Virus record (IMG/VR): IMGVR_UViG_3300009537_000137
Location: 1-27,792 of that record
From: a virus
Reading direction: 5' to 3' (one strand)
DNA length: 27,792 nucleotides
Position 1 is the first letter of the stretch. The number at the start of each line of letters is the position of its first letter. Below the pieces are notes generated by a model. The model was given only the letters and a program-made list of their open reading frames with translations, did not search any database and was not told the DNA's origin. The translations under genes and the position numbers were made by a program. Below are positions 4,050-24,942 of this stretch, one piece after another.

Positions 4050-4066
4050 TTTAAATTCTTTTTAAA
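4050..4066 (-). promoter_or_regulatory. paired TTTAAA element before the fibre gene
   Basis: Read leftward it is TTTAAA-AAGAA-TTTAAA, directly followed by the ATG of the fibre gene. Two self-complementary hexamers lie 11 bp apart, start to start. It is one of five copies in the window; function unknown. Confidence 0.6.
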
Positions 4067-4083
4067 CGTTTTATAAATCACTC

Positions 4084-4914
4084 TTAGTCCAGCGAAATGA
4101 TCTCGTTGAAGCTTACCGCATAACTCGTCACCCCTGCATTTGGCTTAATAATACCCATGGTAATATTGCCGTTTGGCAGCACTTCCATATATAACCCGCG
4201 GATGATATCCACCCCTGCCAAATCAGTAAACAACGGTTTCGCAGTATCATGGTACCGGTACAATGCGGTAAACGGCGCCTTCACTGCCGGCCTGTATTCT
4301 GCTGGCAATGTGCCGAGCAGATGTTGCATCGGAGGATCACCAACCGACCCGGGCGCGCCCACGGTCAATGTGCCATTGAGGTGCAGCGTCCGCGTCAGAA
4401 GGTTGCGCCGGTAATTGATCGTGCCAGTGGTATTTCCTCCCGAGCCGGTCAAATTCACGGCTATTGATCCGGTCAGTCCGCCAACCCAAGCTCCATTAAC
4501 AGCCATATAACCGAACCGCTCAGCCCATAAAACTTCAAATCTTTTAAATCCGGAAAAGGGTGTGCCCGGCGTTGTGGTTATCTCCACATATCGCTCCCAT
4601 TCCACATCTTCGGCAAACCCTGTTTCAAATTGAATCCCCGTTCTGTTTTCAATAATATTCCAAAAAGACCCCAGTCCGCCACGAAAGGGCAATATCTCCC
4701 CATCAACAGCTACCCATCCATCCGTCAAGCCTCCTGTGCCATTATCCCCTACTCCAGACAGTATCATCCACTGGAAACTCCCGGCACCAGGGCTATACAG
4801 ATCGTCGCTATACGACAGCCACTTATGCATATCCGCAGTCGCCTCCTGCATGAATTTCAGGACATCCTGATCGAGGGGGAAGCCGCCTGTGCGCGTAAAA
4901 TCGTATTGATTCAT
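4084..4914 (-). CDS. distal tail / baseplate-associated protein, unknown family
   Basis: 276 residues beginning MNQYDFTRTGGFPLDQDVLKF. The first 150 residues are Trp/Gly-rich beta structure (SFQWMILSGVGDN, GWVAVDGEILPF). A Gly/Thr-rich linker (NLTGSGGNTTGTINY, about 152-167) leads to a C-terminal beta domain (LTRTLHLNGTLTVG...LPAEYRPAVKAPFTALYRY). The ATG overlaps the upstream stop by 4 nt (ATGA), so it belongs to the baseplate operon. It occupies the usual place of a short fibre or fibre-connector after gpJ and gpI. I infer a structural role in the tail tip. No catalytic motif is visible. Confidence 0.68.
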   Translation of the reverse strand: MNQYDFTRTGGFPLDQDVLKFMQEATADMHKWLSYSDDLYSPGAGSFQWMILSGVGDNGTGGLTDGWVAVDGEILPFRGGLGSFWNIIENRTGIQFETGFAEDVEWERYVEITTTPGTPFSGFKRFEVLWAERFGYMAVNGAWVGGLTGSIAVNLTGSGGNTTGTINYRRNLLTRTLHLNGTLTVGAPGSVGDPPMQHLLGTLPAEYRPAVKAPFTALYRYHDTAKPLFTDLAGVDIIRGLYMEVLPNGNITMGIIKPNAGVTSYAVSFNEIISLD

Positions 4915-5393
4915 ATTGTCTCTATTAAATAGTTATGCTTTGATGGCAGCCTGTATTTATTGATCAGCGCCTTCATTTCATTTAAGTCAAATGTTATGAT
5001 CGCGGGCACCTCTACCAGGAAATCAGGACCGTTAATCGTTTCCGCCCCGGTATATATATATCGAGGAATGGTCTCAATCCGCGCATAGATATAATTTGGT
5101 TTATTTTCCAGCCTTGTGTACAGGTACAGCGGGTCTATGTCCGGTCCGTCCACTACCCTTATCCTGCGCAGCGCCACATCCCATCGGTCATTGAGCACTG
5201 CCTCCAGATATACCACCTGGCTGCTGTGGTTGAGATAATACAGCGTATTGTTCCTGAACGTCATAAACTGCGTGTGCAGCCATACAATGGGAGCAATCAG
5301 CGCATCCATCCACGCCAGCATTTTCGCACCCCGCAGCCGTTTCGGAATAAGAATCCGAACCAATACAAACCAGTCTATATTATATGGGTTCAT
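4911..5393 (-). CDS. baseplate protein in the gpI position
   Basis: 160 residues (MNPYNIDWFVLVRILIPKRL...). It is Arg/Tyr-rich with a helical centre (KMLAWMDALIAPIVWLHTQFMTF, about residues 24-46). Its position directly after the baseplate J gene, with a 14-nt overlap, equals that of P2 gpI or Mu gp48, which connect the baseplate to fibres. Sequence similarity to those families is not evident by eye, so the assignment is positional only. It is followed by the 276-residue protein with an ATGA overlap. Confidence 0.62.
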   Translation of the reverse strand: MNPYNIDWFVLVRILIPKRLRGAKMLAWMDALIAPIVWLHTQFMTFRNNTLYYLNHSSQVVYLEAVLNDRWDVALRRIRVVDGPDIDPLYLYTRLENKPNYIYARIETIPRYIYTGAETINGPDFLVEVPAIITFDLNEMKALINKYRLPSKHNYLIETI

Positions 5394-6219
5394 GCGGCAG
5401 GAAGTTTAAGGTGAGATCAGAAGGGTTGGCCAGACGCAGATAACCCGCGTCTGGCTGGTACTGCACTCCTACACTGAGGAAGGGGAATAAGCCATACTGA
5501 GACTGAGCCAGTACCAGGTGCGGTATTACCACACCTTCCACGGCTTGCAGCTTATCAGTCAGCTTCACCGGCAGGAACAGCCCGTTGAAGGTCATGTCTT
5601 CCTTCAGGTATTCGTCTATCGCATCCTGCACCGGCGTATTGTTGATTCCGTCCAGGCGCTGCCCGGTGGCATCCAGTATCAGCGGGTCGTAATAAATATC
5701 ATATTCCAGCTTCAGACTGTCCGCCACGCTGTTGGTATAATAGAGCTTCACACCAGCGTCCTTGATCCTGCCCATGTAAGTCTTCAGCGCATCGAGCTGC
5801 GGCGTGGTCAGCGGTGCGAGATCACCGGCGGTTTCGCCCGCCACCTTTATGCGCACACCCTTCACCACCTCCACGGCGGCGGCATACTTCACCACCTGTG
5901 CGGCTGTTATCGTTGCCTCGTCAATGCCGGTATTATCATAAAAATCTTCGTCGGGGAATAAGGAATAGCCGAACTGGAACAGCTTTGCCTTCAATGCATA
6001 CCAGCGCAGCGTATGTGGCTTACCTGATGCTATGAGGGTATTCACATCGGCTTTGAAGAGGTCAAAGAGTTTTTCGAGCGCCCAGATAGCAACGGCAACG
6101 ATATACGTCCACAGCCGCCAGATAGCCACGGCGCTGGTGCTGCTCAATGCACTCAGGTTGCTGTCCGCGTTCTTCGCGTCTATGATCTGCTGCTGTATCT
6201 GTGCTATGGTTCTTGCCAT
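5380..6219 (-). CDS. baseplate J-like protein
   Basis: 279 residues. The N-terminus is helical (MARTIAQIQQQIIDAKNADS, then SAVAIWRLWTYIVAVAIWALEKLFDLFKADV, about 29-59). Residues 110-150 carry a J-like segment in which a value is assigned (VRIKVAGETAGDLAPLTTPQLDALKTYM). The C-terminal part has the wedge pattern (VQDAIDEYLKEDMTFNGLFLPVKLTDKLQAVEGVV), matching the J-family layout in which a helix precedes a strand pair near the C-terminus. Baseplate J (P2 gpJ, Mu gp47, T4 gp6) forms the wedge ring. The order tail X, gp25, then J upstream supports this. It is shorter than Mu gp47, as is usual for Bacteroidetes versions. Confidence 0.75.
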   Translation of the reverse strand: MARTIAQIQQQIIDAKNADSNLSALSSTSAVAIWRLWTYIVAVAIWALEKLFDLFKADVNTLIASGKPHTLRWYALKAKLFQFGYSLFPDEDFYDNTGIDEATITAAQVVKYAAAVEVVKGVRIKVAGETAGDLAPLTTPQLDALKTYMGRIKDAGVKLYYTNSVADSLKLEYDIYYDPLILDATGQRLDGINNTPVQDAIDEYLKEDMTFNGLFLPVKLTDKLQAVEGVVIPHLVLAQSQYGLFPFLSVGVQYQPDAGYLRLANPSDLTLNFLPHEPI

Positions 6220-6230
6220 TTTCTTTTTTG

Positions 6231-6509
6231 TTATTGTACCTCAAAATCTTCCTCGATTGCCCAGTAACCTATACCTGCCATCAGGTCGGGGTCGTCGAGC
6301 GTGGCGGGCTGCAGCCCAATTTCTTTTATGCCCTGCAGCATTTTTTTATTCTTCAGTTCCTCGGCAGGCTCTATGATCTCAGTGCCTGGCTGTGGCTCTT
6401 CGTTAATCCGCAGACCATACAATGCCGCCACCTCAAACAGGCTTTCGAGTGTGCCTGTGGTCTGGATGGCTATGTCCATCATCGTCTGGTTGCTATGCGT
6501 AGTAGGCAT
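6231..6509 (-). CDS. tail protein X-like (LysM-type) protein
   Basis: 92 residues. The first 50 residues read as a LysM/tail-X module: MPTTHSNQTMMDIAIQTTG (compare the 'T.wDIA.q..G' pattern), then SLFEVAALYGLRINEEPQPGTEI. Tail X proteins (P2 gpX) are small LysM-like proteins, thought to bind peptidoglycan or the baseplate hub. The C-terminal extension is acidic. The gene overlaps the gp25-like gene by 17 nt and is followed by baseplate J after an 11-nt gap. Confidence 0.6.
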   Translation of the reverse strand: MPTTHSNQTMMDIAIQTTGTLESLFEVAALYGLRINEEPQPGTEIIEPAEELKNKKMLQGIKEIGLQPATLDDPDLMAGIGYWAIEEDFEVQ

Positions 6510-6792
6510 CTGTCTTAATTTTATCCTGCACGAGGCGCACCTCGTTCACTTTCATTCCATCTTTTGCAAACTGGCTGCTGATCTCCCGGATCAGCGCTTC
6601 CGGATCTTCATCATTGAGGTACTCCATAGCGCCCACGCACACCAGCGGGTTTTCCTTAAAGCTGCCCTTGGCATTTTGCAACAGTTGCTTCTGGTGCATC
6701 TTGGTGCTTTCTTCGCCCGCAAAATCACCATCGGCGGAGATCACCAGGTCGTCCGTGGTATAATCAAGCGCTATGTCTATCTGTTTTCTCAT
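6493..6792 (-). CDS. gp25/GPW-like baseplate wedge protein
   Basis: 99 residues. The pattern DIALDYTTDDLVISADGDFAGEEST near the N-terminus, then MHQKQLLQNAKGSFKENPLVCVG and a C-terminal IREISSQFAKDGMKVNEVRL, fits the GPW/gp25 and Mu gp46 type: a short beta start, a helix that aligns the transcript of values, and an amphipathic end. This family forms the inner wedge of contractile baseplates. Placed between the spike and J genes, as in Mu (gp45-46-47). The assignment is medium because the family is short and diverged. Confidence 0.62.
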   Translation of the reverse strand: MRKQIDIALDYTTDDLVISADGDFAGEESTKMHQKQLLQNAKGSFKENPLVCVGAMEYLNDEDPEALIREISSQFAKDGMKVNEVRLVQDKIKTDAYYA

Positions 6793-7010
6793 TAGCTGAT
6801 CGTATGTACCATTGAACCCACCACCGGATCACCGCCAGCCGTAAGCCCTGTTGAATAATTTACCTGTGCCTGCTTCACGAATGCATCCACCGCGTCTGCT
6901 ATCGCTCCCGCCAGTTGATCAGCGGCAGCGGTCGGGTCAGAGGTTATATTCCTCTGCGCCAGCAATGCGCCTTTAATCGAAGCCTTCAGTGTCCCTTTAT
7001 CTAAACTCAT
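6792..7010 (-). CDS. small baseplate-operon protein, unknown function
   Basis: 72 residues (MSLDKGTLKASIKGALLAQRN...). Helical, Ala-rich (AAADQLAGAIADAVDAFVKQAQV) with a Gly-rich C-terminus (TAGGDPVVGSMVHTIS). The start overlaps the upstream spike gene stop as ATGA and its stop overlaps the gp25-like ATG by 1 nt, so it is embedded in the operon and very likely translated. Function not recognised; small proteins in this place are common in Bacteroidetes phage baseplate operons. Confidence 0.65.
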   Translation of the reverse strand: MSLDKGTLKASIKGALLAQRNITSDPTAAADQLAGAIADAVDAFVKQAQVNYSTGLTAGGDPVVGSMVHTIS

Positions 7011-7492
7011 GTAAGAAGGTTGGGTATTCTGTTCTTAATAGCGGTGAACGCTGCAGCATTGATCGGCACACCGCTCGGTCCTGCCGATGTAGGCACAGTG
7101 AGCTGGTTGATCGTATCTATCAGGTCCTCCAGTATTTTTTTAAGATCTTCGCCACCGCGCTTTATCTGGTAGCCATCTGCATCTATCACAAACTCGGTAG
7201 TCTCAATCGTTCCTTTCACCTTCTCTACCTCGTCCACGCTGATCACCAGGTGATCCCTGCCGAGCTGCAGCAGCGTCACATCGCTGCCCGTCTTCGGGAT
7301 GATCACCACCGCATCGCTGCTTTCCTTCAGCGCTTTAAGCTGCACCTCTTTGAGCTCCAGTCCGTTTGCCAGCTTCACAGTGCACGTATATTCGCCCTCG
7401 TCCACAGCCGTCACTTCGCCATGCAGCACTCTGCCGTCCTGGTTCATCAACCGCTCCAAACCGCTCAATACCTTATGCTGGCTGTAGTTCAT
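7007..7492 (-). CDS. baseplate spike protein (gpV / Mu gp45-like)
   Basis: 161 residues. An N-terminal helix (MNYSQHKVLSGLERLMNQDG) precedes an OB-type beta domain: VLHGEVTAVDEGEYTCTVKLANGLELKEVQL (about 22-52), then VVIIPKTGSDVTLLQLG and LVISVDEVEKVKG (about 61-91). This is the layout of P2 gpV/Mu gp45-type membrane-piercing spikes. The C-terminus (IDADGYQIKRGGEDLKKILEDLIDTINQL) is a helix rather than a beta-helix needle, and no His/Cys iron-binding tip is seen. It overlaps the gpD-like gene by 20 nt and lies directly after it, the expected order. Confidence 0.72.
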   Translation of the reverse strand: MNYSQHKVLSGLERLMNQDGRVLHGEVTAVDEGEYTCTVKLANGLELKEVQLKALKESSDAVVIIPKTGSDVTLLQLGRDHLVISVDEVEKVKGTIETTEFVIDADGYQIKRGGEDLKKILEDLIDTINQLTVPTSAGPSGVPINAAAFTAIKNRIPNLLT

Positions 7493-8480
7493 CCTGTGGT
7501 TTGCTTAAGGTTTTACCAATCTCCACCATGCGCCTTGCGCCACGGGTTCCGAAAATCACATCCGTACTCACCAGCAGGTAAGCGCCTGACCGTTCCGCAT
7601 ACACATCATCCTCTATCTCTGCCTTCCATCCCGGCAGCGCAAAGGGCACCAGGAAGGTGTTTAACTTTCCCTCATACCCGCTGTAGCGCATTTCCCGCGC
7701 TTCCTTATTCACTATTCTTTTCAGCAAATCATTGTCGGTGATCACACCCATCTCTATCACTTTGTCCGCGCCGCCTTCCTTTCCGAATATCTTATGCAGG
7801 CTCTTGCCTTTTTTATTTTTATAATTCACCCGCACCCGGCAGCGTACATCCTCATCCCTGCGAAACTTCAACTGGTCGTCCTTGATGGTATTCCATCCCA
7901 GGCGATACTTCACCATTTTGTCTAATTGCGTGGTCTGCTCCAGACCGGCATACAGTTCGCTGCCTATAAAGTATATAGTGAGGAACATTTCCTTTTTAAG
8001 CCGTTCCAGGCATTCCACCCCGTCTTCATCATTGAGCCGGAAATACCCTTCAAACTTTATATCCGGAATACTCTTGCTCAGCGTAATGTCTGTGCCGGAT
8101 ATGATGTGCTGCAGAATCTCTTTCACCTTTGCGTCCTTCCATTCCTTCACGAATGTTTTTTTCCGAAGCTGCCAGGAGTAACCCTCACATTCCACCTCGC
8201 AGGGGGTGGAGAAATTCACACGCTTTACAAAGCCCACAAACTCCTCCTGCAGGTTGTTGTCATAACCCAGCTTTATAGTCACTTTATCGCCTTCGTGAAA
8301 CTGTTTTGCCGTCTCCACGCTTTCCGCAGGACGATCACCTGATTGCTTCAACATTGCCGATGCTGGCAGGCGGATGCTGGCAGTATCTACATAACTGTAA
8401 ATGCTGCGCTTCACGCGTGCCTCATTCACTGAGGTAAAGCGGAAATCGCCAATGGTTATATGTGGGGTCAGCACAAACAT
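7473..8480 (-). CDS. baseplate hub / late control gpD-like protein
   Basis: 335 residues. MFVLTPHITIGDFRFTSVNEARVKRSIYSYVDTASIRLPASAML at the N-terminus, FHEGDKVTIKLGYDNNLQEEFVGFVKRVNFSTPCEVECEGYSWQLRKK (about 82-129) and KEILQHIISGTDIT (about 139-153) follow the gpD/Mu gp44/T4 gp27 hub plan, in which a barrel with 'G+..F.G.V' is followed by a second barrel and a helical domain. The C-terminal third has SGYEGKLNTFLVPFALPGWKAEIEDDVYAERSGAYLL, the gp27-like fold end. It caps the tube and holds the spike, encoded next. Its ATG abuts the stop of the DUF6046 gene. Confidence 0.78.
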   Translation of the reverse strand: MFVLTPHITIGDFRFTSVNEARVKRSIYSYVDTASIRLPASAMLKQSGDRPAESVETAKQFHEGDKVTIKLGYDNNLQEEFVGFVKRVNFSTPCEVECEGYSWQLRKKTFVKEWKDAKVKEILQHIISGTDITLSKSIPDIKFEGYFRLNDEDGVECLERLKKEMFLTIYFIGSELYAGLEQTTQLDKMVKYRLGWNTIKDDQLKFRRDEDVRCRVRVNYKNKKGKSLHKIFGKEGGADKVIEMGVITDNDLLKRIVNKEAREMRYSGYEGKLNTFLVPFALPGWKAEIEDDVYAERSGAYLLVSTDVIFGTRGARRMVEIGKTLSKPQDELQPA

Positions 8481-9029
8481 TTATAGCTCTAAAACAAATT
8501 CAGAATCACTGATAAGGTCTATCTGGTAAGGCACTACTCCTTTAAATCCTTTGGTTTCTAAAATATCCAGGTGCGTGATCACCGCCTTGTCACTCCCGCC
8601 TCGTGCTTTCGTCTTCAGGAAGATGTCGGTAAGCGGGCAGCGTATGCTAACCGCTTTATTGAGCGCAAACAAATCCTGCAGTCCTGCCACCAGTTCCTCC
8701 GGCCACTGCTGGCTGTTGCCCAGGCAGATGCCCCGGATGGATATTTTATAATCATCCACCGAAATCAGTTCTTTCACCGTGCCCTGGCGGTTCACCATCG
8801 TGGTCTCCACAATGTTCTTGCGCGCATTGATCCGGATCACCGGCAGCGGTAACTCCAGGTCTCCCAGCTTCACGGGCATAAAGTAATTCCTGCCAAGCGC
8901 ATCCTGTGCATAGTAAGGGCTGCCCAGCTTCGCGCTTTGCGAAGGGATGGGCAATGCTTCCGCGTCAAACCTGGGGCTGATGCCGAAAAACTGCTCAAAC
9001 AGTTGCGGTATGGGAAACTCTGCTATCAT
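8481..9029 (-). CDS. DUF6046-type baseplate/tail protein
   Basis: 182 residues. Matches my recollection of DUF6046, a family found in Bacteroidetes myovirus operons: MPVKLGDLELPLPVIRINARKNIVETTMVNRQGTVKELISVDDYKISIRGICLG (about 57-111), then PEELVAGLQDLFALNKAVSIRCPLTDIFL and a final beta pair. The 'VNRQGTVKELIS.DDY.I.I.G' segment suggests a beta-rich hub- or LysM-like adaptor. Its place between tape measure and gpD is that of Mu gp43, so a baseplate-hub adaptor role is inferred. Start overlaps the tape-measure stop by ATGA. Confidence 0.75.
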   Translation of the reverse strand: MIAEFPIPQLFEQFFGISPRFDAEALPIPSQSAKLGSPYYAQDALGRNYFMPVKLGDLELPLPVIRINARKNIVETTMVNRQGTVKELISVDDYKISIRGICLGNSQQWPEELVAGLQDLFALNKAVSIRCPLTDIFLKTKARGGSDKAVITHLDILETKGFKGVVPYQIDLISDSEFVLEL

Positions 9030-10840: not shown

Positions 10841-11019
10841 ATTACTCTGCTGTTCCGCTCCTCCTGTCTTATATATTCCAGGTGAGCTATTGCCTGGGCA
10901 AATTCTGTCTTACTCATCCTATTCGGGTCCGTGTGGTAATGATACCTTATAAGGTAACTGTAATAGCCAACGGGATCGTATGATGGACCGCCCACCGACC
11001 CCTTTATAAGTTTACCAGC
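10837..11019 (-). CDS. tail assembly chaperone extension, likely made by a -1 frameshift
   Basis: An open frame of 60 codons in the -1 frame relative to the upstream chaperone runs from just after a TGA at 11020-11022 to a TGA at 10837-10839 that overlaps the tape-measure ATG as ATGA. The translation (GGPSYDPVGYYSYLIRYHYH, then TDPNRMSKTEFAQAIAHLEYIRQEERNS) is a convincing globular helical protein. It has no well-placed start: the only ATG (10915-10917) would give 26 residues. This is the G/GT arrangement, in which a fraction of ribosomes shift frame to make a longer chaperone before the tape-measure gene. The shift must happen between 11019 and 11004. No canonical XXXYYYZ heptamer is visible; GGTAAAC is the nearest. 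Confidence 0.7.
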   Translation of the reverse strand, partial: AGKLIKGSVGGPSYDPVGYYSYLIRYHYHTDPNRMSKTEFAQAIAHLEYIRQEERNSRVI

Positions 11020-11336: not shown

Positions 11337-11354
11337 GATACTTCAATTATTTTG

Positions 11355-11427: not shown

Positions 11428-11432
11428 ATGAT

Positions 11433-11852: not shown

Positions 11853-11864
11853 TTTATTATTTTT

Positions 11865-11881
11865 TTTAAAAGCTGTTTAAA
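11865..11881 (-). promoter_or_regulatory. paired TTTAAA element before the tail tube gene
   Basis: Read leftward it is TTTAAA-CAGCT-TTTAAA, 12 nt upstream of the tube ATG. Its extended form TTTTAAACAGCTTTTAAAA (11864-11882) is identical to the copy at 19957-19975, which faces the other way. Confidence 0.65.
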
Positions 11882-11903
11882 ATTTGTTCTTTAAGGTTGG
11901 GCT

Positions 11904-13109
11904 TTATAGCGTCAGCGCAAAACCAAGATCCACTTCAATGTCTTTCAGGTAGCCTTTAGGGCGTGCGCGCATTTTCATTTTTAAGAGCGAAGTGCTCAGC
12001 ACATTCTGATCCGGATCAATGAAGCTGCGGAATGCCACGGTGCCGTCCTCGTTGGCAGAAAGCTCTCCCGCCATCTGTGTTTTCACGGCACGCTCCACTT
12101 TGGCATTGATGGTGGCGATCACCGCAGGGTGCAGCTTGCCGCCGTCTATGGTGTCCACATCATCATTTAGCTCATCCACCAGGGTGAGATACGTGATGCG
12201 GTGTGCCTTGTCTATGACGCGTCCGCGTCCCAGCTGTGCATAGTCGTCAGAGGTAGGCGCAGCCATAGGATCATCATTCATGAAGTAACCAGCCTTGCCC
12301 ACCAGGGTGCGCAGGATGATGTACCCTTTATCGTGCACGCTGTCCAGCGAAGCCAAAGCCGCTTCTACAGTGCTGTCGCCAATGTAAGGCTGCACGGTAA
12401 GCGGCAGCGGTCCGTTCTTCACACGACCGATATTGCGCTGCACCGGTAATCCGCAGGCTACGCCCAGCACGAAACCAAGTGATGCGCTTTTATCATTGGC
12501 AGTGCTCCAGGCTACGATGCCCACTCGATTGGCGGAGAGCGCCCTCAGATCAGGCCAGCTTCCGACTGATGCGAAGAGCATGTTCCTGCCTTCTATCAGG
12601 CAGCGCACAGGTTTCTGAGCAGTAGCGGCTGCCGCAGCCAATACCTGCGCGTTGGTGACCGCATTCTCCACATCCAGGTCAATACCATTTGTGGTGGTAG
12701 GCGTGTATCCGGATGCAGGCACCCGGCTGAAACCGAGCAGCTTGATCCTTCCACTTGCACCATCCAGCAATTTTTTAGCACCGGAGGCATTGGTATTATC
12801 TGCCATCTGCGTCAATGAAGTGGTGTCTGCCACCAGCATGATCCACAGCTCCGCATTCTCAGAGCCGGTGATATAAAGGATACCATCGTAGAACTCCTTG
12901 ATCTGGCGGTGCTGCTTTGGAAACAGCGCCGAGGTAATGCCCAGGGCTTCCGCCTCTTTGAGGTTGAAGATCACCTTCGGTGTGGCAAGCGCCAGACCCG
13001 AAGGAGGAGCGTCAATGCTGATGATTAAACCGCCGATGCCGTCACCGGTGGCAGAGACAGAGCCGAGCGCCCCGTTGGCAAGACTTATTTTTACTTTTCC
13101 TAAAGGCAT
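11904..13109 (-). CDS. tail sheath protein (DUF2586 type)
   Basis: 401 residues. MPLGKVKISLANGALGSVSATGDGIGGLIISIDAPPSG is the start of the DUF2586-type sheath, with a Gly-rich N-terminal beta arm. The middle has FKEAEALGI and LYITGSENAELWIMLVADTTS, and the C-terminal half has SLDSVHDKGYIILRTLVGKAGYFMNDDPMAAPTSDDYAQLGRGRVIDKAHRITYLTLVDEL, the sheath signature in which a loop 'G.Y..DD..ap..DDY......GRV.DK' precedes the C-terminal domain. The last residues (MRARPKGYLKDIEVDLGFAL) form the arm that links subunits. Contraction of this protein drives the tube. The gene is preceded by a paired TTTAAA element abutting its ATG. Confidence 0.85.
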   Translation of the reverse strand: MPLGKVKISLANGALGSVSATGDGIGGLIISIDAPPSGLALATPKVIFNLKEAEALGITSALFPKQHRQIKEFYDGILYITGSENAELWIMLVADTTSLTQMADNTNASGAKKLLDGASGRIKLLGFSRVPASGYTPTTTNGIDLDVENAVTNAQVLAAAAATAQKPVRCLIEGRNMLFASVGSWPDLRALSANRVGIVAWSTANDKSASLGFVLGVACGLPVQRNIGRVKNGPLPLTVQPYIGDSTVEAALASLDSVHDKGYIILRTLVGKAGYFMNDDPMAAPTSDDYAQLGRGRVIDKAHRITYLTLVDELNDDVDTIDGGKLHPAVIATINAKVERAVKTQMAGELSANEDGTVAFRSFIDPDQNVLSTSLLKMKMRARPKGYLKDIEVDLGFALTL

Positions 13110-13126
13110 TTTAAAAGGTCTTTAAA
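13110..13126 (-). promoter_or_regulatory. paired TTTAAA element before the sheath gene
   Basis: Read leftward it is TTTAAA-GACCT-TTTAAA, directly followed by the ATG of the sheath gene, the same abutting geometry as at 4050-4066. Confidence 0.6.
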
Positions 13127-13143
13127 GTGAACTGTTGATTTAC

Positions 13144-13401: not shown

Positions 13402-13414
13402 AACAATGGTTTTT

Positions 13415-14915: not shown

Positions 14916-14923
14916 TTTTTTTT

Positions 14924-15467: not shown

Positions 15468-15483
15468 TTTAATTAGTCACTTA

Positions 15484-16587: not shown

Positions 16588-16655
16588 AATTCTTATCTGG
16601 TTTTTCTGTTTAAAAAAATTGGTTCGTTTAATAGTGATCCTGTTCGGGGGCTGGC

Positions 16656-17815: not shown

Positions 17816-17956
17816 GATGTAAAAATGGAAAGCCCTGAAACCCTCTCCAAATCAGGAATACACCATAGTTATAGGGTTGCGGTGTGCTACCCGCCATAGT
17901 GTAGTATGATACTTTTTGCTAAGAAAAATTTAGCCCTGTGAGGTGAAATTTGTTGC
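17816..17956. promoter_or_regulatory. divergent intergenic region between the two late operons
   Basis: 141 bp between the GTG of the prohead protease (leftward) and the ATG of the small terminase (rightward), the only divergent junction between the head operons. It contains an imperfect hairpin GGGTTGC-GGTGT-GCTACCC (17874-17892) flanked by direct repeats CCATAGT (17863-17869 and 17894-17900). A TACTTTTTG word near 17910-17918 is one base longer than the TAnnTTTG -7 motif of Bacteroidetes promoters. Promoters for both operons are expected here; none can be placed exactly. Confidence 0.5.
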
Positions 17957-18409
17957 ATGGCAACCAGGAAAGAAGAAATGGACAGGAAAAAGCGGCTCGC
18001 TTTCACCCTGTACGTGGACAATGGTTTGGATCAAAAGGTGATCGCGGACATCACCGGCATAAGCGAAAATTCCATCAGCAAATGGAAGCGGGAAGGAGAA
18101 TGGGATGATGAGCGCCGGATGAACCTCTTAGGACCTGATAAGCAGATGCGCCGCATTATAAAGATGTATGACACGCTGCTCACCCAGATCGAAGAACGCG
18201 ACGCGCCAAAGAATGTGCCGGACAGCAAGGAGAGCGACATCCTGAACAAGCTTGCAGACTCAGTGAAGAAACTGCAGACGGACCTTACCATGTTTATGAA
18301 AACGGAAGTGGGCAAACAATTTATCGCCTACATCCAGCAGACCCACGGGCAGGCAAGAGCCATAGAATGCGTGGAGCTGTGGCATGAATACCTAATGGCA
18401 ACATCATGA
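17957..18409 (+). CDS. terminase small subunit (Mu gp27-like)
   Basis: 150 residues. A helix-turn-helix region (KKRLAFTLYVDNGLDQKVIADITGISENSISKWKREGEWDD, about 11-51) is followed by a helical C-terminal part (ILNKLADSVKKLQTDLTMFMKTEVGKQFIAYIQQTHGQAR). Small terminases bind pac DNA through such an HTH and oligomerise by helices. The stop overlaps the ATG of the large subunit by ATGA. It starts the rightward operon. Confidence 0.8.
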   Translation: MATRKEEMDRKKRLAFTLYVDNGLDQKVIADITGISENSISKWKREGEWDDERRMNLLGPDKQMRRIIKMYDTLLTQIEERDAPKNVPDSKESDILNKLADSVKKLQTDLTMFMKTEVGKQFIAYIQQTHGQARAIECVELWHEYLMATS

Positions 18410-19962
18410 GTGTACGCATCAACGACAAACAGGCAGTTACTAACTGGGAACGGTTTCGCGAAAGCGTGCGTAAAAGCACTCCTGTGGACCTCTCCGAAAC
18501 TCCGGAGGCTAAGAAAAAACGTATTGCCAACCTGGAGGCAGACCCCCAGGCATGGAAACAGTATTATTTTCCAAAGTATTTTAAATACCCATCCCCGAAA
18601 TTTCATATCGCCGCCTCAAAAAGGCTGCATAAGAATCTTGAGAAACACCGCCACTGGTATGATGTGCGGCACTGGGCGCGGGGGCTTTCCAAAAGCACAA
18701 CTTGCATGTTCGACGTGCTGTACCTGGTGCTTACCGGCAAGCTGAAAAACATCATCCTCACCAGCAGCACTTATGATGCTGCGGAAGCTTTCCTGGAGAA
18801 ATACCGGGTGCAGCTCGATAGCAACGACCGGGTGATCAACGATTATGGCAAACAGGAAATGCCAGGAAGCTGGACGATGGGCAGCTTTACCACCCGCAAG
18901 GGTGCTAAGTTCCTCGCGCTCGGCGCAAGGCAATCGCCACGCGGCAATGGTAACGAGGAAGTGAGACCGGATTGCATTATCGTGGACGATTTCGACACGG
19001 ACGAAGAATGCCGCAACCCGGAGATCATTAACCAGAAATGGGACTGGTTTGAGAAAGCCCTGTTTTTTGCAGTGGATACAGCCGAACCTTACCTGATCAT
19101 CTGGAATGGCAATATCATAGCGGAAGATTGCTGTGTGGTGAGAGCCGGACAGAAGGCAGACCATACCGAGATTGTGAACATTCGCGATGCTGATGGAAAA
19201 AGCGTCTGGCCCGACAAAAACAGCGAGGCGGATATAGACTACCAGTTATCGAAGGTGAGCTATGAGGCAGGACAACAGGAGATGTTCAACAATCCCATCC
19301 GCCAGGGGCAGGTCTTTAAAGAAATGACCTATGGCAAATGCCCGCCGCTAAAATCATTACAATTTGTGGTGATCTATGCAGATCCTTCCACCTCCAATAA
19401 AGACAAACCTTCGCTCAAGGCGAAAGTGCAAAATAGCTGTAAGGCTGTTGTTATTGTCGGATACCGCGATTTGAAATACTATGTCTATAAGGCGTTCGTG
19501 GATACTACCACCAACAGTAATTTCATAGACTGGCTGTATGCCGCTCATAATCAAACGCGAGACTTAACGCAGCCTTACATTTTTATTGAAAACAACACAT
19601 TGCAGGACCCGTTCTACACACAGGTGCTGCTGCCGCTCATCTTCCAGAAGGGAAAGGAAAACGGAGGCGTGCTGCCCATAACACCGGATGGCAGGGATAA
19701 ACCCGATAAATATTTCAGAATTGAAGGAACGCTGGAGCCTTTGAACCGCCTCGGCTTACTGATACTCAACATTGACGAAATTGACAATCCGCACATGCAG
19801 CGGCTGGAAGCGCAATTTAAAAGTGTGAAGAGCAGCAGCAAGACTATGGACGGACCGGATGCCGTGGAAGGCGCAGTGCACATCATCAAAAACAAACTTG
19901 CCATGCAGGCCGCCGGAGGTATAGAGATGATGAAGCGCAAACCCAATTCAAAACGCTTTTAA
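18406..19962 (+). CDS. terminase large subunit (Mu gp28-like)
   Basis: 518 residues. Walker A-like WARGLSKST (about 90-98, with Gly93, Lys96, Ser97), a Walker B DCIIVDD (about 189-195, Asp194-Asp195) in the ATPase half, and an RNase H-like nuclease half with IYADPSTSN (Asp326), YIFIENNT (Glu395) and MDGPDAVEGA (Asp482/Asp485). These are the residues of the large-terminase motor and headful nuclease. The N-terminal AWKQYYFPKYFKYPSPKFH is typical for phage terminases of this group. Encoded right after the small subunit. Its stop lies in a paired TTTAAA element. Confidence 0.88.
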   Translation: MSVRINDKQAVTNWERFRESVRKSTPVDLSETPEAKKKRIANLEADPQAWKQYYFPKYFKYPSPKFHIAASKRLHKNLEKHRHWYDVRHWARGLSKSTTCMFDVLYLVLTGKLKNIILTSSTYDAAEAFLEKYRVQLDSNDRVINDYGKQEMPGSWTMGSFTTRKGAKFLALGARQSPRGNGNEEVRPDCIIVDDFDTDEECRNPEIINQKWDWFEKALFFAVDTAEPYLIIWNGNIIAEDCCVVRAGQKADHTEIVNIRDADGKSVWPDKNSEADIDYQLSKVSYEAGQQEMFNNPIRQGQVFKEMTYGKCPPLKSLQFVVIYADPSTSNKDKPSLKAKVQNSCKAVVIVGYRDLKYYVYKAFVDTTTNSNFIDWLYAAHNQTRDLTQPYIFIENNTLQDPFYTQVLLPLIFQKGKENGGVLPITPDGRDKPDKYFRIEGTLEPLNRLGLLILNIDEIDNPHMQRLEAQFKSVKSSSKTMDGPDAVEGAVHIIKNKLAMQAAGGIEMMKRKPNSKRF

Positions 19963-19974
19963 ACAGCTTTTAAA
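19958..19974 (+). promoter_or_regulatory. paired TTTAAA element between terminase and the 78-residue gene
   Basis: Reads TTTAAA-CAGCT-TTTAAA. It overlaps the terminase stop codon and lies 8 nt before the next ATG. The 19-bp core TTTTAAACAGCTTTTAAAA is identical to the copy upstream of the tail tube gene. Confidence 0.65.
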
Positions 19975-19982
19975 ACATACTC

Positions 19983-20219
19983 ATGAAGCACATCGCACGC
20001 ATTATTTCTAAACTCGCATTTCGCATCATCAGAAACACGCTGGTCATGTGTATGCGCACAGAGGGTCATTCCTGGCTGCAGATCAACCGCATACTGAATA
20101 AATGCGGGCAGAAAGTGGTATTGAGAGTAGATCATGACAAAACCGGCAGATCGCGCGCACTTATCCGCTATGGGAAATTTGACCCCAACAACAGGGTAGA
20201 TCAAAGAGTTCATTTTTAA
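19983..20219 (+). CDS. small protein of unknown function after terminase
   Basis: 78 residues (MKHIARIISKLAFRIIRNTL). Basic at the N-terminus with a hydrophobic helix-like start, then a domain with RTEGHSWLQINRILNKCGQKVVLRVDHDKTGRSRALIRYGKF. Reading frame is intact and the start follows the terminase stop by 20 nt. The reverse frames in this stretch are also open, so coding evidence is moderate. I do not recognise the family. Confidence 0.5.
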   Translation: MKHIARIISKLAFRIIRNTLVMCMRTEGHSWLQINRILNKCGQKVVLRVDHDKTGRSRALIRYGKFDPNNRVDQRVHF

Positions 20220-20229
20220 ATTATAAGCC

Positions 20230-20667
20230 ATGTTGCTCGTAACCATTGACGATTTTAAAACGCATCTGTACACCGAGATCATGGACGAGATCACGCGGGC
20301 AGATGAATCTATAATCCAGACAGCGCTCGACCGGGGCATCGCCCAGGCAAAAGGCTATTGCAGCCGATACGCCATTCCTGCCATCTTCGGCACGGCAGAC
20401 GAAGAAGCTACGGTGAAAGACCCGCAGCTCGCTGGCATCATAAAAGACCTCGCGCTTTGGCATTTCCTGCAGTTGGGTAACACCAACATAGAAATGAGCC
20501 GGGCACAGGCTGCCTATGAATATGCTGTAAGCTGGCTGAAGGACCTGCAAAAAGGAATGGTGCAGCCGGAAGGCTGGCCATACCACGATACCAGCACCGA
20601 TGCCACGCCGCCGGAGGGCAATGCAGTAGCCTGGTCATCAAACACTAAACGCAGCAATCATTTTTAA
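20230..20667 (+). CDS. head-tail connector, Mu gp36-like (DUF1320)
   Basis: 145 residues. LVTIDDFKTHLYTEIMDEITRADESIIQTALDRGIAQAKGYCSRY and a second helical part IAPAIFG...VKDPQLAGIIKDLALWHFLQLGNTNIEMSRAQAAYEYAVSWLKDLQKG match the Mu gp36 / DUF1320 plan: an N-terminal helix with 'DE...AK...Y' and a 'L.D...YHL....' helix pair, as in gp6/gp15-type connectors. It probably sits at the head-tail connector next to portal. The C-terminal Asp/Thr/Pro-rich part is likely flexible. Confidence 0.78.
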   Translation: MLLVTIDDFKTHLYTEIMDEITRADESIIQTALDRGIAQAKGYCSRYAIPAIFGTADEEATVKDPQLAGIIKDLALWHFLQLGNTNIEMSRAQAAYEYAVSWLKDLQKGMVQPEGWPYHDTSTDATPPEGNAVAWSSNTKRSNHF

Positions 20668-20668
20668 C

Positions 20669-20785
20669 ATGACCGCAGAAGAAATCATTCAAGCAGCCGC
20701 GCAGGAAATGCGCATCCATTATACAGCATTCGAGGGCATGGACAGTATCCTGCTCCTGCAATGCTTTTTTATAGGACTCAACTAA
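20669..20785 (+). CDS. possible 38-residue protein before the portal gene
   Basis: A short frame starting at the first ATG after the gp36-like stop codes for MTAEEIIQAAAQEMRIHYTA and an amphipathic end FEGMDSILLLQCFFIGLN. It has a helical pattern, abuts the gp36-like stop and ends 5 nt before the portal ATG. It may be a real small protein or just leader sequence; nothing recognisable. Confidence 0.35.
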   Translation: MTAEEIIQAAAQEMRIHYTAFEGMDSILLLQCFFIGLN

Positions 20786-20790
20786 TTTTT

Positions 20791-22059
20791 ATGGCAACAT
20801 CCAAAAAAACGCCCGCACCAGCCAAGAGCAAATATGTGATCACCAACCACGAGGTGAACATCCGCTCGGCAGACCGCAGCAGCAAGGACATCAGCACCTG
20901 GAGGGATGCACTCAGGACGGCGGAATCTGTCTATTACCCGCGCCGGGTAAGGCTATACGATCTATATGCAGACATCCTGCTCGATGGACACCTGTCCGGC
21001 ATCATCAGCAAACGCATGGACGCAGTGCTCAACAAGGATATTTTCTTTGAGAAAGGCGGCAAGCGGGTAGAAGATATGGACGCGCTGGTGCATTCGCAGA
21101 AGTTCCGCGAGATCATGCACAACATTCTGGAAACACAGCTTTGGGGTATCTCAGGACTTGAGTTCATTCCCGGTGCGGAGCTTAACTTTTTAAGGATGCA
21201 CCGTAAACACATAAGACCGGACCTCGGTAAGTATGTACTGGAGCAGAACGGCGAGGAAGGCTATGATTACCGCAGCCTGTCCAACCTCTGGGTGATGGGT
21301 GATAAAGACGACCTGGGACTGCTGCTCAAATGCTCGCCTTACGCGCTCTACAAACGCGGAGGCATGGCAGACTGGGCGCAATATGTGGAGATCTTTGGAA
21401 TGCCGGTTCGGGTGGTGAAGTATGATGCCCACGATACGCAGACCAAGGTGGAGCTGCGCAAGACGCTCGATGAAAGCGGATCGGCGCTGGCGCTCATGAT
21501 CCCGAACCAGGCGAACTTCGAAATGCACGACGGCAAGCAGAGCAACGGCAACGGTGAGCTGCAGCAGAAGTTCACACAGGCGCTCAATAACGAAATGTCG
21601 GTGATCATTCTCGGCAACACCGAGACCACCAGCAACGATAATGGCGGCAGCAATGCCAAGAGCCAGACCCACCAGCAGCAGCAGATAGAAGTTACCAAGT
21701 CCGACCTGAAGTATGTGGCTAACATGCTCAACGATCCGCAGTTCATTTCCATCCTCCGAAGTTATGGCTACCCTGTCGAGGGCGGCAGCTTCGTCTTCGA
21801 GAAGGAAGTGGACATGGCGCAGATCAAAGAGCAGGTGGGCATTCTGCAAACAGTGAAGACCCTGGGCACGCCGGTGGATGATGATTATATCTACGAGCTT
21901 ACTGGCATACCCAAACCCAAAGATTACGACAAGCTGAAAAAGCAGCGGGAGGAAGAGCGTAAGGCAGTGATGCAGCAACGTGCCGCAGGTCCGCAGAATG
22001 TGGACGATGACCGTAACTGGTGGCAAAAGGCGCGGGATTTTTTCGTGCAAGCCCCGTAA
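20791..22059 (+). CDS. portal protein (Mu gp29-like, DUF935)
   Basis: 422 residues from the ATG at 20791, used because the longer frame from 20761 adds 10 residues of unrelated sequence. DUF935 hallmarks are visible: LRTAESVYYPRRVRLYDLYADILLDGHLSGIISKRMDAVLNKDIFF (about 37-83), LWGISGLEFIP, and GLLLKCSPYALYKRGGMADWAQYVEIFGMPVRVVKYD (about 170-206), and later NEMSVIILGNTETT and FEKEVDMAQIKEQVGILQTVKTLG. The portal dodecamer is the DNA gate at the capsid vertex. Its stop overlaps the start of the gpF-like gene by 40 nt. Confidence 0.85.
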   Translation: MATSKKTPAPAKSKYVITNHEVNIRSADRSSKDISTWRDALRTAESVYYPRRVRLYDLYADILLDGHLSGIISKRMDAVLNKDIFFEKGGKRVEDMDALVHSQKFREIMHNILETQLWGISGLEFIPGAELNFLRMHRKHIRPDLGKYVLEQNGEEGYDYRSLSNLWVMGDKDDLGLLLKCSPYALYKRGGMADWAQYVEIFGMPVRVVKYDAHDTQTKVELRKTLDESGSALALMIPNQANFEMHDGKQSNGNGELQQKFTQALNNEMSVIILGNTETTSNDNGGSNAKSQTHQQQQIEVTKSDLKYVANMLNDPQFISILRSYGYPVEGGSFVFEKEVDMAQIKEQVGILQTVKTLGTPVDDDYIYELTGIPKPKDYDKLKKQREEERKAVMQQRAAGPQNVDDDRNWWQKARDFFVQAP

Positions 22060-22886
22060 ATCCGGGGCAGGTAAGCAATATCATCCACCAGATCGGAGAC
22101 CTGTATGAGGGGTGCTGCCACCATGAGCCGCGCAATGTGGCAGACGATAACGAAGAGCTGCCCGCAGCACTGGAAGACCTTTTGCAAAACCTGCACAGCG
22201 GCGCCATTAAGGCGGGAATGATAGACACCGCCACCGCATTAGACACCGCTCGTAAATTGATGGAAGCAGTGTTTGAAGGTTATGGGCAAAATTTCGATAC
22301 GGTACTATTCGATAGTCCGGATCTGGAAATGCTCATCAACCTGGAAAAAAACGTGTATCAGTTCTCCGCAGCCAAAAACTACCAGATGCTCAAAGACCTT
22401 ACCCTGTCGCTGAAAGATGGCGATAAGCTCAGGAGCTTTGCCGAATTCCGCAGGGAAGCATCTCAAAAGCTGGACACCTGGGTAGGAAGCTGGCTGGAGA
22501 CGGAGTATAACACCGCAGTAGGATCGGCACAGATGGCTGCCCGGTGGACGGAGTACCAGCAATATGCCGGAGCCATACCCAATGGCACTTACCGTACTGC
22601 GGGCGATGAGCGGGTAAGTGCAGAGCACCGGCTGCTGGATGGTATCACCAAACCCCTGAGCGATCCGTTCTGGAACATCTACTGGCCACCGTTAAGGTTT
22701 AACTGCCGCTGCCTGGTAGATCAAACCAGCCTGGCGGTTACCGACACCACAGAAAAACCATTACCGGAAGTGCCGGAAATGTTTCGGGTAAACCTCGCCA
22801 AAGAAGGGCTGGTATTCCCTCCGGGACACCCGTATTACGATGGCGTCCCCAAAAAGCTGCTCAACAAAATAAAACCCGATGCCTAA
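22020..22886 (+). CDS. head morphogenesis protein (Mu gpF-like / SPP1 gp7 family)
   Basis: 288 residues from a GTG. The C-terminal region carries the gpF motif: YRTAGDERVSAEHRLLDGITKPLSDPFWNIYWPPLRFNCRC (about 196-237; 'D.R....H..LDG....DDPFW..Y.PP..FNCRC'), typical of Mu F and SPP1 gp7, minor head proteins that act in head assembly. Before it, FAEFRREASQKLDTWVGSWLETEYNTAVGSAQMAARW is the helix-rich part of the family. It overlaps the portal end by 40 nt, the known portal-F coupling. The N-terminus (GCCHHEPRNV) is unusual and the true start is uncertain. Confidence 0.82.
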   Translation: MAKGAGFFRASPVNPGQVSNIIHQIGDLYEGCCHHEPRNVADDNEELPAALEDLLQNLHSGAIKAGMIDTATALDTARKLMEAVFEGYGQNFDTVLFDSPDLEMLINLEKNVYQFSAAKNYQMLKDLTLSLKDGDKLRSFAEFRREASQKLDTWVGSWLETEYNTAVGSAQMAARWTEYQQYAGAIPNGTYRTAGDERVSAEHRLLDGITKPLSDPFWNIYWPPLRFNCRCLVDQTSLAVTDTTEKPLPEVPEMFRVNLAKEGLVFPPGHPYYDGVPKKLLNKIKPDA

Positions 22887-23430
22887 CCAGTTTCCATTTA
22901 ACAAGGTGCAGGCTGCACTCAAAGACGCGGTGAGACGGCTGCCCGCCAAACTGGGCACCGAGGCGGTGAACTTTTTCCGCCACAACTTCCGCGACCAGGG
23001 ATGGAACGGCAACAGCTTCATGCCCTGGACACCCCGAAAAGGCGGCAAGGATAAAGGCAGGGGCATACTTATAAAAAGCGGCAGGCTGCGCAGGTCCATA
23101 AGAATAGCCCGTGTCACTTCCGGCAGCGTGGTGATCGCCACCGATGTGCCTTATGCCCGCGCGCATAATGAGGGATTTAGTGGCATGGTGCATGTAAAGG
23201 CGCACAGCCGAAACCGCTACGGCAAAGAAAAAGTGGGCACAGGTAAGCTCACCAAAACCGGCAAGGAAAGAATGCGCAGCGTGACCAGGGTAACCGGCAC
23301 CGGCGCTGTGGGGCAACACAACCGATACATGAAGATGCCCCGCAGGCAGTTCATGGGCGACAGCCCGTTCCTGAACAAACGATTAGAGCGTGTGATAGCC
23401 GCAGATATTATTAAGGCTTTAAAATTTTAG
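22879..23430 (+). CDS. virion morphogenesis / tail completion protein (Mu gpG-like)
   Basis: 183 residues. Matches the gpG family: AVNFFRHNFRDQGWNGNSFMPWTPRKGGKDKGRGILIKSGRLRRSIRIARVTSGSVVIATDVPYARAHNEGF (about 30-101), with the 'F...F..QGW.....F.PW..R......G.iL..SG.LRRSI' signature and a C-terminal RRQFMGDSPFLNKRLERVIAADI. Members are minor tail or head-tail joining proteins. It overlaps the gpF-like stop by 8 nt. Confidence 0.82.
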   Translation: MPNQFPFNKVQAALKDAVRRLPAKLGTEAVNFFRHNFRDQGWNGNSFMPWTPRKGGKDKGRGILIKSGRLRRSIRIARVTSGSVVIATDVPYARAHNEGFSGMVHVKAHSRNRYGKEKVGTGKLTKTGKERMRSVTRVTGTGAVGQHNRYMKMPRRQFMGDSPFLNKRLERVIAADIIKALKF

Positions 23431-23434
23431 TATT

Positions 23435-23992
23435 ATGGAAGGACCATTCGGGAACCTGATATTACAGATACAGGAGAAAATAAAAGAAGCGGTGCCAGAG
23501 ATCCGCGAGGTGGCGGAAGACAAGGGGCAGATAGACGCTTATGAGAACAGACCGGCGGTATCATTCCCCTGCCTGCTCATAGATTTCGACTTCAAGTTTG
23601 ACGACATGGGCGAGAACACGCAGATGGGTGAGGGTGCTGTGATCATCCGGTTGGCATTCCCGCCCTACAGCAGCAGCAGCAGCCTGATGCCGGTGGAAGT
23701 GCGCGAGAAAGGGATGGCTTATCTTGACTATGAGCTGAAGGTGTACCAGGCGCTGCAGGGATGGCAGCCGTTGAGTGATCCTGCTGCCGATGGTTTTGCC
23801 TTCAAAGCGCTAAGCCGAAGGACGGCGGTAACCGAAAAAAGGAATGACCCTATAAGGGTGCGGCAGATCAGGTATGACACGGCGCTGGAAGATGCCACGG
23901 CACAGGATATATATGCGAAGGCGCATATTGACGATGTGCAGATAAGCGGAGAACTGGTGGAGGATATGAATGTGCCGGTGGTGTATGATTAA
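23435..23992 (+). CDS. tail terminator / neck protein (Mu gp37-like position)
   Basis: 185 residues. MEGPFGNLILQIQEKIKEAVPEIREVAEDKGQIDAYENRPAVSFPCLLIDFDFKFDDMGENTQMGEGAVIIRLAFPPY is a helix-strand-strand plan with a 'FPC.LID' strand, and LDYELKVYQALQGWQPL followed by FKALSRRTAVTEKRNDPIRVRQIRYDT completes a gp37-/gpU-like beta sheet. Tail terminator proteins end the growing tail and join it to the head. The assignment rests on position after gpG and on fold pattern. Its stop lies near the end of the rightward operon. Confidence 0.65.
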   Translation: MEGPFGNLILQIQEKIKEAVPEIREVAEDKGQIDAYENRPAVSFPCLLIDFDFKFDDMGENTQMGEGAVIIRLAFPPYSSSSSLMPVEVREKGMAYLDYELKVYQALQGWQPLSDPAADGFAFKALSRRTAVTEKRNDPIRVRQIRYDTALEDATAQDIYAKAHIDDVQISGELVEDMNVPVVYD

Positions 23993-24306
23993 ACCGTCCA
24001 GGAGAACTGCGGCCATTTTCGCGCCAGTTCTTTTACCGGCACCTGGTTTTTTTTGTTTTTCTGGATGTGAGCGAGCTGCTGGGTGATGATCTCCGGCACG
24101 GTATAGACCGAGAGGAAGAATTCATCGGCAAGCGTCTGGATTACTTTTTCATATCGGATATTGAGATAAGAGCCGTAGAAATAATAGCGGTCGGCGATGG
24201 CTTCGTTTCGGCGTGCGTGCAGTTCGTTGCTGCGCCCCTTGCGTTGGCGGGGTGCTGGCAAATCAGTAAACAAATCTGTAAAAAGGCGGCTGCCGCGAAG
24301 CTGCAT
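23989..24306 (-). CDS. small basic helical protein, possible DNA-binding protein
   Basis: 105 residues. The core HARRNEAIADRYYFYGSYLNIRYEKVIQTLADEFFLSVYTVPEIITQQ (about 30-77) is a pattern I recall in small Bacteroidetes phage proteins ('RN..IA.RYYY......RYD..L..L..EFFLS..T'), resembling a helix-turn-helix. The ends are basic (APRQRKGRS, KNKKNQVPVKELARKW). It overlaps the tail terminator stop convergently by 4 nt and lies alone between the two opposing transcripts. A regulatory role is possible but unproven. Confidence 0.62.
   Translation of the reverse strand: MQLRGSRLFTDLFTDLPAPRQRKGRSNELHARRNEAIADRYYFYGSYLNIRYEKVIQTLADEFFLSVYTVPEIITQQLAHIQKNKKNQVPVKELARKWPQFSWTV
24003..24034 (+). terminator. 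possible terminator at the end of the rightward operon
   Basis: Inverted repeat AGAACTG/CAGTTCT (24003-24009 and 24025-24031) with a 15-nt loop, followed by a run of four T; a further T-rich tract lies at 24047-24060. It lies 11 nt past the tail-terminator stop and inside the convergent gene's 3' end. Confidence 0.4.
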
Positions 24307-24325
24307 GTGTTGTGTGGTGGTTACA

Positions 24326-24356
24326 CAAAAATAGCGAGCTGTGTAATAGCTCGCTA
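24326..24356 (-). terminator. intrinsic terminator closing the leftward early operon
   Basis: Read leftward: TAGCGAGCT-ATTACAC-AGCTCGCTA (9 perfect pairs) followed by five T. It lies 39 nt downstream of the secreted-protein stop and 20 nt upstream of the next gene, separating the early operon from the isolated 105-residue gene. The same T-run contains TATTTTTG, which fits the Bacteroidetes -7 word TAnnTTTG, so a start site for that gene may overlap it. Confidence 0.75.
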
Positions 24357-24394
24357 ATAAACTTATTCAACAATTCACAATTACGTAAGGCAAA

Positions 24395-24892
24395 TCATTT
24401 TTCGAACCAGCTAAACATCATCCACCAATAACCCTCCTTAGATGCCGGTTCGAATATTAAATGATAGCGGTGTGCATTTTTATTGTAGAATACAGATCCA
24501 TAAACCTTTTTAGGGGAATTTATTTCGGCTTCAAATATCCTGTTAAATACCCGCTGCATTGTAAGCCACTGCCCCGTGATCTGAATCTTTCTTATTGCAG
24601 GCACTCCGGCTATCTTGTAGTTTGCATCACCGCCAATGATCTCATAATCATATCGCACTACTAATTTTTCTGCATCATTATTTTCATAAACGAAAGACAA
24701 ATTTTTCCGACTCTGGTTCGAATCAAGGCTTTGTAATTTATAATCAGGTATCTGCTGTAAAATAAAATCATTGAAACGAAAGCCGGCATCAGGTATGGAA
24801 TCCATAACAAAATACCTGGCTGAAAGACTGCCCTGTGCAGAGCAAATAATAAAGTGTAACAGGATGGCAAAGAGCAAGGATATTTTTTTCAT
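24395..24892 (-). CDS. secreted protein of unknown function, last gene of the early operon
   Basis: 165 residues. A signal peptide (MKKISLLFAILLHFIICSAQ, cleavage about SAQ-GS) is followed by a beta-rich domain (LQSLDSNQSRKNLSFVYENNDAEKLVVRYDYEIIGGDANYKIAGVPAIRKIQITGQWLTM, then VYGSVFYNKNAHRYHLIFEPASKEGYWWMMF). No known family is visible. A signal-peptide gene at the end of a phage operon is often a lysogenic-conversion or exclusion factor, but nothing in the sequence proves that. Start chosen at the first ATG with a signal peptide. Preceded by a paired TTTAAA element. Confidence 0.65.
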   Translation of the reverse strand: MKKISLLFAILLHFIICSAQGSLSARYFVMDSIPDAGFRFNDFILQQIPDYKLQSLDSNQSRKNLSFVYENNDAEKLVVRYDYEIIGGDANYKIAGVPAIRKIQITGQWLTMQRVFNRIFEAEINSPKKVYGSVFYNKNAHRYHLIFEPASKEGYWWMMFSWFEK

Positions 24893-24925
24893 GATCGTTG
24901 ATTTTTGAGTTATAAAATTATAGTT

Positions 24926-24942
24926 TTTAAATCCCTTTTAAA
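24926..24942 (-). promoter_or_regulatory. paired TTTAAA element between gemA-like gene and secreted-protein gene
   Basis: Read leftward it is TTTAAA-AGGGA-TTTAAA, overlapping the stop codon of the GemA-like gene and 33 nt before the next ATG. A TATAAT word follows 3 nt after it. It is the only copy in the early operon. Confidence 0.6.

Follow-up and report, generated by a model that had tools for sequence, protein, structure and literature searches.

Bacteriophage Mu carries a strong gyrase site (SGS), the right arm of which is essential in Mu (PMC10052514). In the structure, the AT minor grooves of this arm face the pinwheel of GyrA and GC faces outward (PMC11626157), and the gyrase motif comprises 130 bp with 47-bp arms, a GC period of 10.75 bp, and an inward AT minor groove (PMC6379681). 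Open questions in Mu biology include the need for a central gyrase site, the failure of most other strong gyrase sites to substitute for the SGS, and the basis of Mu genome immunity. In this study, we analyzed the IMG/VR record IMGVR_UViG_3300009537_000137 (27,792 nt, apparently a fragment; this whole stretch is hereafter called the window), which carries the paired element TTTAAA-N5-TTTAAA. The element is real and recurrent, and it was wrongly scoped in the preliminary description of the window; it is a phased-array feature of Mu-like phages. Because its helical-turn repeat marks Mu-like (transposing) phages of many bacteria and matches the wrapping arm of the SGS, the pairs of the window probably serve to bend DNA rather than to switch genes.

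Five exact copies were identified in the window, at the positions originally reported:
4050-4066, minus strand, pair 1: TTTAAAAAGAATTTAAA in gene sense, abutting the ATG of the gene at 2316-4049 (minus strand)
11865-11881, minus strand, pair 2: TTTAAACAGCTTTTAAA, with the ATG of the tail tube gene 12 nt on
13110-13126, minus strand, pair 3: TTTAAAGACCTTTTAAA, abutting the ATG of the sheath gene
19958-19974, plus strand, pair 4: TTTAAACAGCTTTTAAA, with the terminase stop codon inside the first unit and the ATG of the gene at 19983-20219 8 nt on
24926-24942, minus strand, pair 5: TTTAAAAGGGATTTAAA in gene sense, overlapping the 3' end of the gene at 24927-25331 (minus strand), with the ATG of the gene at 24395-24892 (minus strand) 33 nt on

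No such pair occurred in 100 dinucleotide shuffles of the window, in agreement with the earlier claim that five copies are far beyond chance. The window contains 25 TTTAAA words, of which the five closest pairs are all 11 bp apart and the next-closest 39 bp, so the proposed helical spacing holds for every close pair. Pair density in the window is 180 per Mb, and its GC content, like that of many of the phages, is 45-50%. The location at gene junctions was also confirmed for all five pairs, with distances to the downstream ATG of 0, 12, 0, 8, and 33 nt in gene sense, and two of the five share bases with a stop codon, namely the terminase TAA (19960-19962) and that of the gene at 24927-25331. 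Near-match units in the same 11-bp step extend sites 1, 4, and 5: TTTATA at 4039 and TATAAA at 4072 bring pair 1 to four units, and pairs 4 and 5 each gain one (TTCAAA at 19947 and TTTATA at 24948, respectively).

Searches with the sheath and the terminase yielded 88 further loci, or 89 with the window. In their noncoding DNA, 28 TTTAAA pairs lie at distance 11, and no other spacing between 1 and 40 has more than 4; AT hexamers taken as controls numbered 0 or 1 at distance 11, except TTTTAA (4), which overlaps the TTTAAA motif. The genes downstream of the pairs among the relatives include those for capsid, portal, tube, and sheath, as well as others. The preliminary description had proposed a test of whether the pair is enriched in front of the same genes in relatives; the pair does recur, and it is seldom found there, preceding the tube gene in 1 of 58 relatives, the sheath gene in none of 60, and the homologue of 2316-4049 in none of 11. 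These counts led us to reject conservation at the same genes. The TTTAAA pair thus recurs across the group without a tie to any single gene, and since homologous junctions seldom retain it, a gene-specific operator is unlikely. Points in favour of operators or promoters through which a phage regulator would control structural genes are the palindromic half-sites one turn apart and the sheath, tube, and other genes that follow the pairs in the window.

Equal frequency in host intergenic DNA had been named earlier as a refuting outcome. In 61 Bacteroidota genomes, the pair occurs about once per Mb, in most of them at a level similar to or no higher than that of the reversed control, against 180 per Mb in the window; a host-genome signal was therefore rejected. 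Three-unit arrays (triples) are nearly lacking in 297 genomes, and 3 of about 10 found there lie in or near DUF2586 prophages.

We scanned IMG/VR by the three-unit N5 array alone, obtained at least 120 stretches, and tested 50 records. Among the matches listed, the Mu portal PF06074 was found in 38 of the 50 records with the N5 triple and, when the spacers were N6 instead, in 4 of 50; the stretches are the first 120 found and not a random sample, the N6 control is more AT-rich, and several records are closely related. The median spacer GC was 0.60 for N5 arrays, on contigs of about 42% GC, and 0.25 for N6 controls, on contigs of 34%. The N5 triple is a DNA word that retrieves Mu-like phages without a protein search. 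Three TTTAAA units at 11 bp (e.g., in L203 and L206) place a TAA stop in all six frames, so triples cannot be coding and their absence from genes is automatic; we dropped the contrast between coding and noncoding DNA as proof. The six-frame TAA bars triples from genes but leaves the enrichment in Mu-like phages unexplained. Many arrays exactly fill the interval between two genes, beginning at the stop codon of the first and ending at the start codon of the second. In L203, L205, L228, and G302, whose apparent hosts are Pasteurellaceae, the Haemophilus-type DNA uptake word ACCGCACTT or its complement adjoins several arrays.

The spacer composition also bears on whether the pairs are a by-product of AT-rich gaps, of terminator stems, or of FKxxLK-type helices in AT-rich genes. 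Some matches do resemble terminator stems: L187, L206, and L231 have TTTAAA pairs that serve as intrinsic terminator stems (CTCCCTTTAAA...TTTAAAGGGAG, then a T run). Coding pairs also occur in Flavobacterium phage fF4, which has ten 11-bp pairs, mostly intragenic and in FKxxLK-like stretches, and in the G211 prophage cluster, which we weighted lightly because the majority of its copies are coding and its DNA is AT-rich. In such AT-rich phages, DNA phasing and amphipathic helices are confounded. However, the window and many of the phages have 45-50% GC, the spacers are GC-rich, and other spacings and AT words show nothing comparable. The by-product is refuted by these controls as a general explanation and is very improbable as an account of the pairs.

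Degenerate triples (at most 3 mismatches in 18) were counted in phages picked by portal or sheath homology and not by the motif. At period 11, there were 5 in Mu, 6 in D108, 6 in Vibrio phage ZX4290, 8 in Shewanella phage MuM16, 12 in Peternella, and 6 in Bacteroides phage BX-TP1, against a mean of 0-0.4 at control periods in these six genomes, with 0 in Mu at most other periods. Lambda and HP1 had none at period 11, the GC-rich JBD25 and Porphyromonas 008a had none, and no excess was seen in pippi8-1 and FPSV-S1, the two non-transposing relatives checked. The arrays of Mu are located at the A/B junction (3304-3345), at 17894-17942, at T/35, before gp47, and in gin. In BX-TP1, the arrays at 142, 5254, and 27404 carry TTCAAA beside TTTAAA with the 11-bp period kept, and TTCAAA is a lineage variant of the unit.

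The Mu array at 17894-17942 is the right arm of the SGS and adjoins the annotated gyrase cut at 17879/17880. Relative to the portal gene, the arrays are clustered, particularly at +3.2 to +3.6 kb, which is the gap that holds the SGS in Mu. This G-I gap contained phased TTTAAA-like units in all 20 Mu-like phages examined, with the gap array at a fraction of about 0.46-0.54 of near-complete genomes and further arrays elsewhere. The layout of Mu, one unit followed by two more about 20 and 31 bp on (TTTAAA-N14/15-TTTAAA-N5/6-TTTAAA), is shared in the gap of ZX4290, G309, G310, G311, and Pmp9. Scored for phasing, the gap falls within the top 3-28% in every genome; it is enriched for phasing and not unique. 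The SGS arm is a known relative of the phased arrays, and TTTAAA-N5 arrays with GC-rich spacers are the SGS-arm pattern at its sharpest.

The periodicity is not confined to the exact units. Outside the units, AT content oscillates in phase with them, most strongly at 11-11.5 bp (120 Mu-like arrays, t = 9.9; 28 arrays of the window's relatives, t = 4.8), and isolated TTTAAA words and N6 triples gave much weaker signals. In the Mu-like set, the TTTAAA distance spectrum is coherent over 40-160 bp and exceeds all 200 jittered controls, unlike that of other AT words, and period 11 is also enriched within genes (104 versus 7-12). Since the periodicity continues for about 160 bp, well past the exact units, and is also seen within genes, the signal is at the DNA level. 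The alternation of AT and GC at about one helical turn, as in SGS arms, is present in both the relatives and the Mu-like set. The earlier reading of the element as a DNA site is supported. An mRNA hairpin or a translation enhancer, two other options offered, explains neither the intragenic period of 11 and the coherence over 40-160 bp nor the occurrence of such an array in the SGS arm of Mu.

A role in translation would involve AU-rich repeats from stop to start codon that recruit ribosomes or isolate cistrons at operon junctions. Array junctions in the Mu-like set are co-directional in 81 cases, convergent in 6, and divergent in 4, and sites of the sheath family show 21 co-directional, 2 divergent, and no convergent junctions. 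Thirty-five of the 81 co-directional arrays lie -1 to 4 nt from the start codon, many arrays begin on the upstream TAA stop (commonest offset -5), Shine-Dalgarno bases fall within the last spacer, and three units provide stop codons in all six frames, all of which fits such an element. Nevertheless, the arrays are neither at a fixed distance from nor exclusively 5' of open reading frames, though many abut an ATG; they also occur at convergent junctions and well inside long gaps, are seldom kept before homologous genes, and share the helical coherence to 160 bp and the intragenic enrichment described above. We therefore regard the translation element as unlikely. Divergent junctions are depleted (4 of 91, against about 13 expected by gap length), which, together with the 0-2 nt left to the ATG and hence the lack of room for a transcription start, speaks against the promoter class proposed earlier for highly expressed genes. 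Promoters of Bacteroidota have a -7 box, TAnnTTTG, and a -33 TTG; no -7 box of this form is present in the element, two window copies of which abut an ATG. The Mu arrays at A/B, T/35, and gp47 are not known to coincide with late promoters. With the pair seldom present at the homologous genes of relatives, an operator or promoter is quite improbable. Taken together, the extended period, the intragenic enrichment, and the junction types favour DNA bending or wrapping over an RNA or promoter element.

Our favoured explanation, for which we judge the chances to be even, is that these are dispersed, SGS-arm-like gyrase-wrapping arrays in the genomes of transposable Mu-like phages. The pairs of the window would be short members of this family, with TTTAAA every 11 bp and GC-rich spacers. 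At every turn, a TTTAAA unit supplies a flexible AT minor groove, centred on TpA, to one side of the helix, with GC on the opposite side, and such DNA wraps easily, as the SGS right arm does around the C-terminal pinwheel of GyrA with its AT minor grooves toward the protein. The arrays would probably load gyrase at points throughout the phage genome, maintain the genome as a distinct, negatively supercoiled domain, and aid synapsis of the ends for replicative transposition. Their location at junctions would mainly reflect the free bases that compact genomes have there. The statistics, the association with Mu-like phages, the period, and the coincidence with the SGS arm and its gap are direct results of this analysis; from these we infer gyrase binding beyond the SGS, the role in a domain, and the extension to the five sites of the window. 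More tentatively, and with clear doubt, we propose that transposable phages of multiple phyla share a genome-wide structural code of multiple phased TTTAAA arrays, the Mu SGS being one; such a code would recruit gyrase, or else MuB and nucleoid proteins, throughout the genome, hold the phage in its own supercoiled domain, pair its ends, and protect it from self-insertion.

The same phased element might instead be bound by a nucleoid protein (HU, IHF, or Fis-like) or by MuB, with the arrays marking or compacting phage DNA for the Mu domain or Mu genome immunity. The DNA-level evidence suits any protein that bends DNA on one face, the SGS, MuB, and nucleoid proteins are all needed for the Mu domain according to the literature, AT elements with a 10-12 bp period have been proposed as a packaging code in E. 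coli, and the two non-transposing relatives lack an excess of arrays. However, a ligand is known for only one array, the right arm of the Mu SGS, and it is gyrase, the period of 11-11.25 bp is near the 10.75 bp of the gyrase motif, and MuB is described as a non-specific DNA binder, so that we consider this alternative rather unlikely, although less so than the translation element.

Several observations weigh against gyrase-wrapping arrays. Quinolone cleavage of Mu DNA revealed a single strong gyrase site (PMC10052514), and strong cleavage in vitro is therefore not a property of the other Mu arrays. A two-arm gyrase template, built as a crude cosine model, did not rank the SGS top at the true cut, for which reason it was not used, and it did not pick the sites of the window. 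The window arrays have only 2-4 units, and their flanks alone gave no 11-bp signal (t = 0.5, with only n = 5 sites). Exact pairs are absent from L061-L063, the closest relatives by terminase, and L063 has no excess of degenerate triples. Exact abutment on an ATG is common among the arrays, and wrapping does not require it. Finally, no transposase was found within the window, the record being incomplete.

The gene content of the window is consistent with a Mu-like head module, and a MuF gene is also encoded:
20761-22059, plus strand, Mu-type portal gene (gp29 family), a marker of the Mu-like head module (PF06074, E=4e-67)
11904-13109, minus strand, tail sheath (DUF2586), a query used for collecting relatives (PF10758, E=1.9e-47; phrog_907)
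downstream of pair 2, minus strand, tail tube gene (phrog_4579 match)
TAA at 19960-19962, plus strand, terminase (phrog_38 match)
26902-27735, minus strand, tyrosine recombinase at the right end of the record (PF00589, E=6.9e-39)

Family searches of the window proteins gave no match in support of the label 'fibre' attached earlier to the product of 2316-4049. Mu-transpos_C is encoded by the relative G404/L063, whose terminase is 72% identical, and by others; if the window phage is laid out as L063, site 4 would be the nearest to mid-genome. The tyrosine recombinase sits with a Mu-type head module, and relatives carry Mu transposases; it may be an additional recombinase or reflect a switch in integration mode. 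The 165-aa product of 24395-24892, at the end of the early operon, has a signal-peptide-like start and no family match, and is a possible host-modifying gene.

In the literature searched on TTTAAA with Bacteroidetes or Mu-like phages, no description of the element was found, and its dispersed exact-hexamer form and wide host range appear undescribed. A signature common to Mu, its enteric, Vibrio, Shewanella, and Pasteurellaceae relatives, and Mu-like phages of Bacteroidota makes the questions of the SGS and of immunity testable; it is found at the SGS and at other junctions and supplies exact bases for half-turn shifting.

Among known systems, the Bacteroidota translation-initiation region, A-rich and without Shine-Dalgarno sequence, is likewise AT-rich just before the ATG, whereas the arrays described here are an exact hexamer with a helical period, occur also within genes, and are present in phages that use Shine-Dalgarno sequences. 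The nucleoid packaging code that has been proposed for phased A-tract clusters likewise consists of AT elements repeated every 10-12 bp, grouped over about 100 bp; the hexamer here is palindromic, TpA-centred, and strongly concentrated in one phage type. The 130-bp gyrase motif of E. coli (Topo-Seq) has similar periodic AT/GC arms, with a period of 10.75 bp there and about 11-11.25 bp here, but is a degenerate pattern at the GC level and not an exact hexamer. The Mu SGS is a single central site in the G-I gap with a mapped cleavage point, a wrap of about 130 bp, and two arms around a 36-bp centre, whereas the window has five dispersed sites and each genome here has up to about 11 short pairs or arrays of 2-4 units at many junctions, with putative gyrase binding. 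The likeness to its right arm lies in phased TTTAAA-like units with GC between them, in the same G-I gap, and in a bendable, DNA-level signal.

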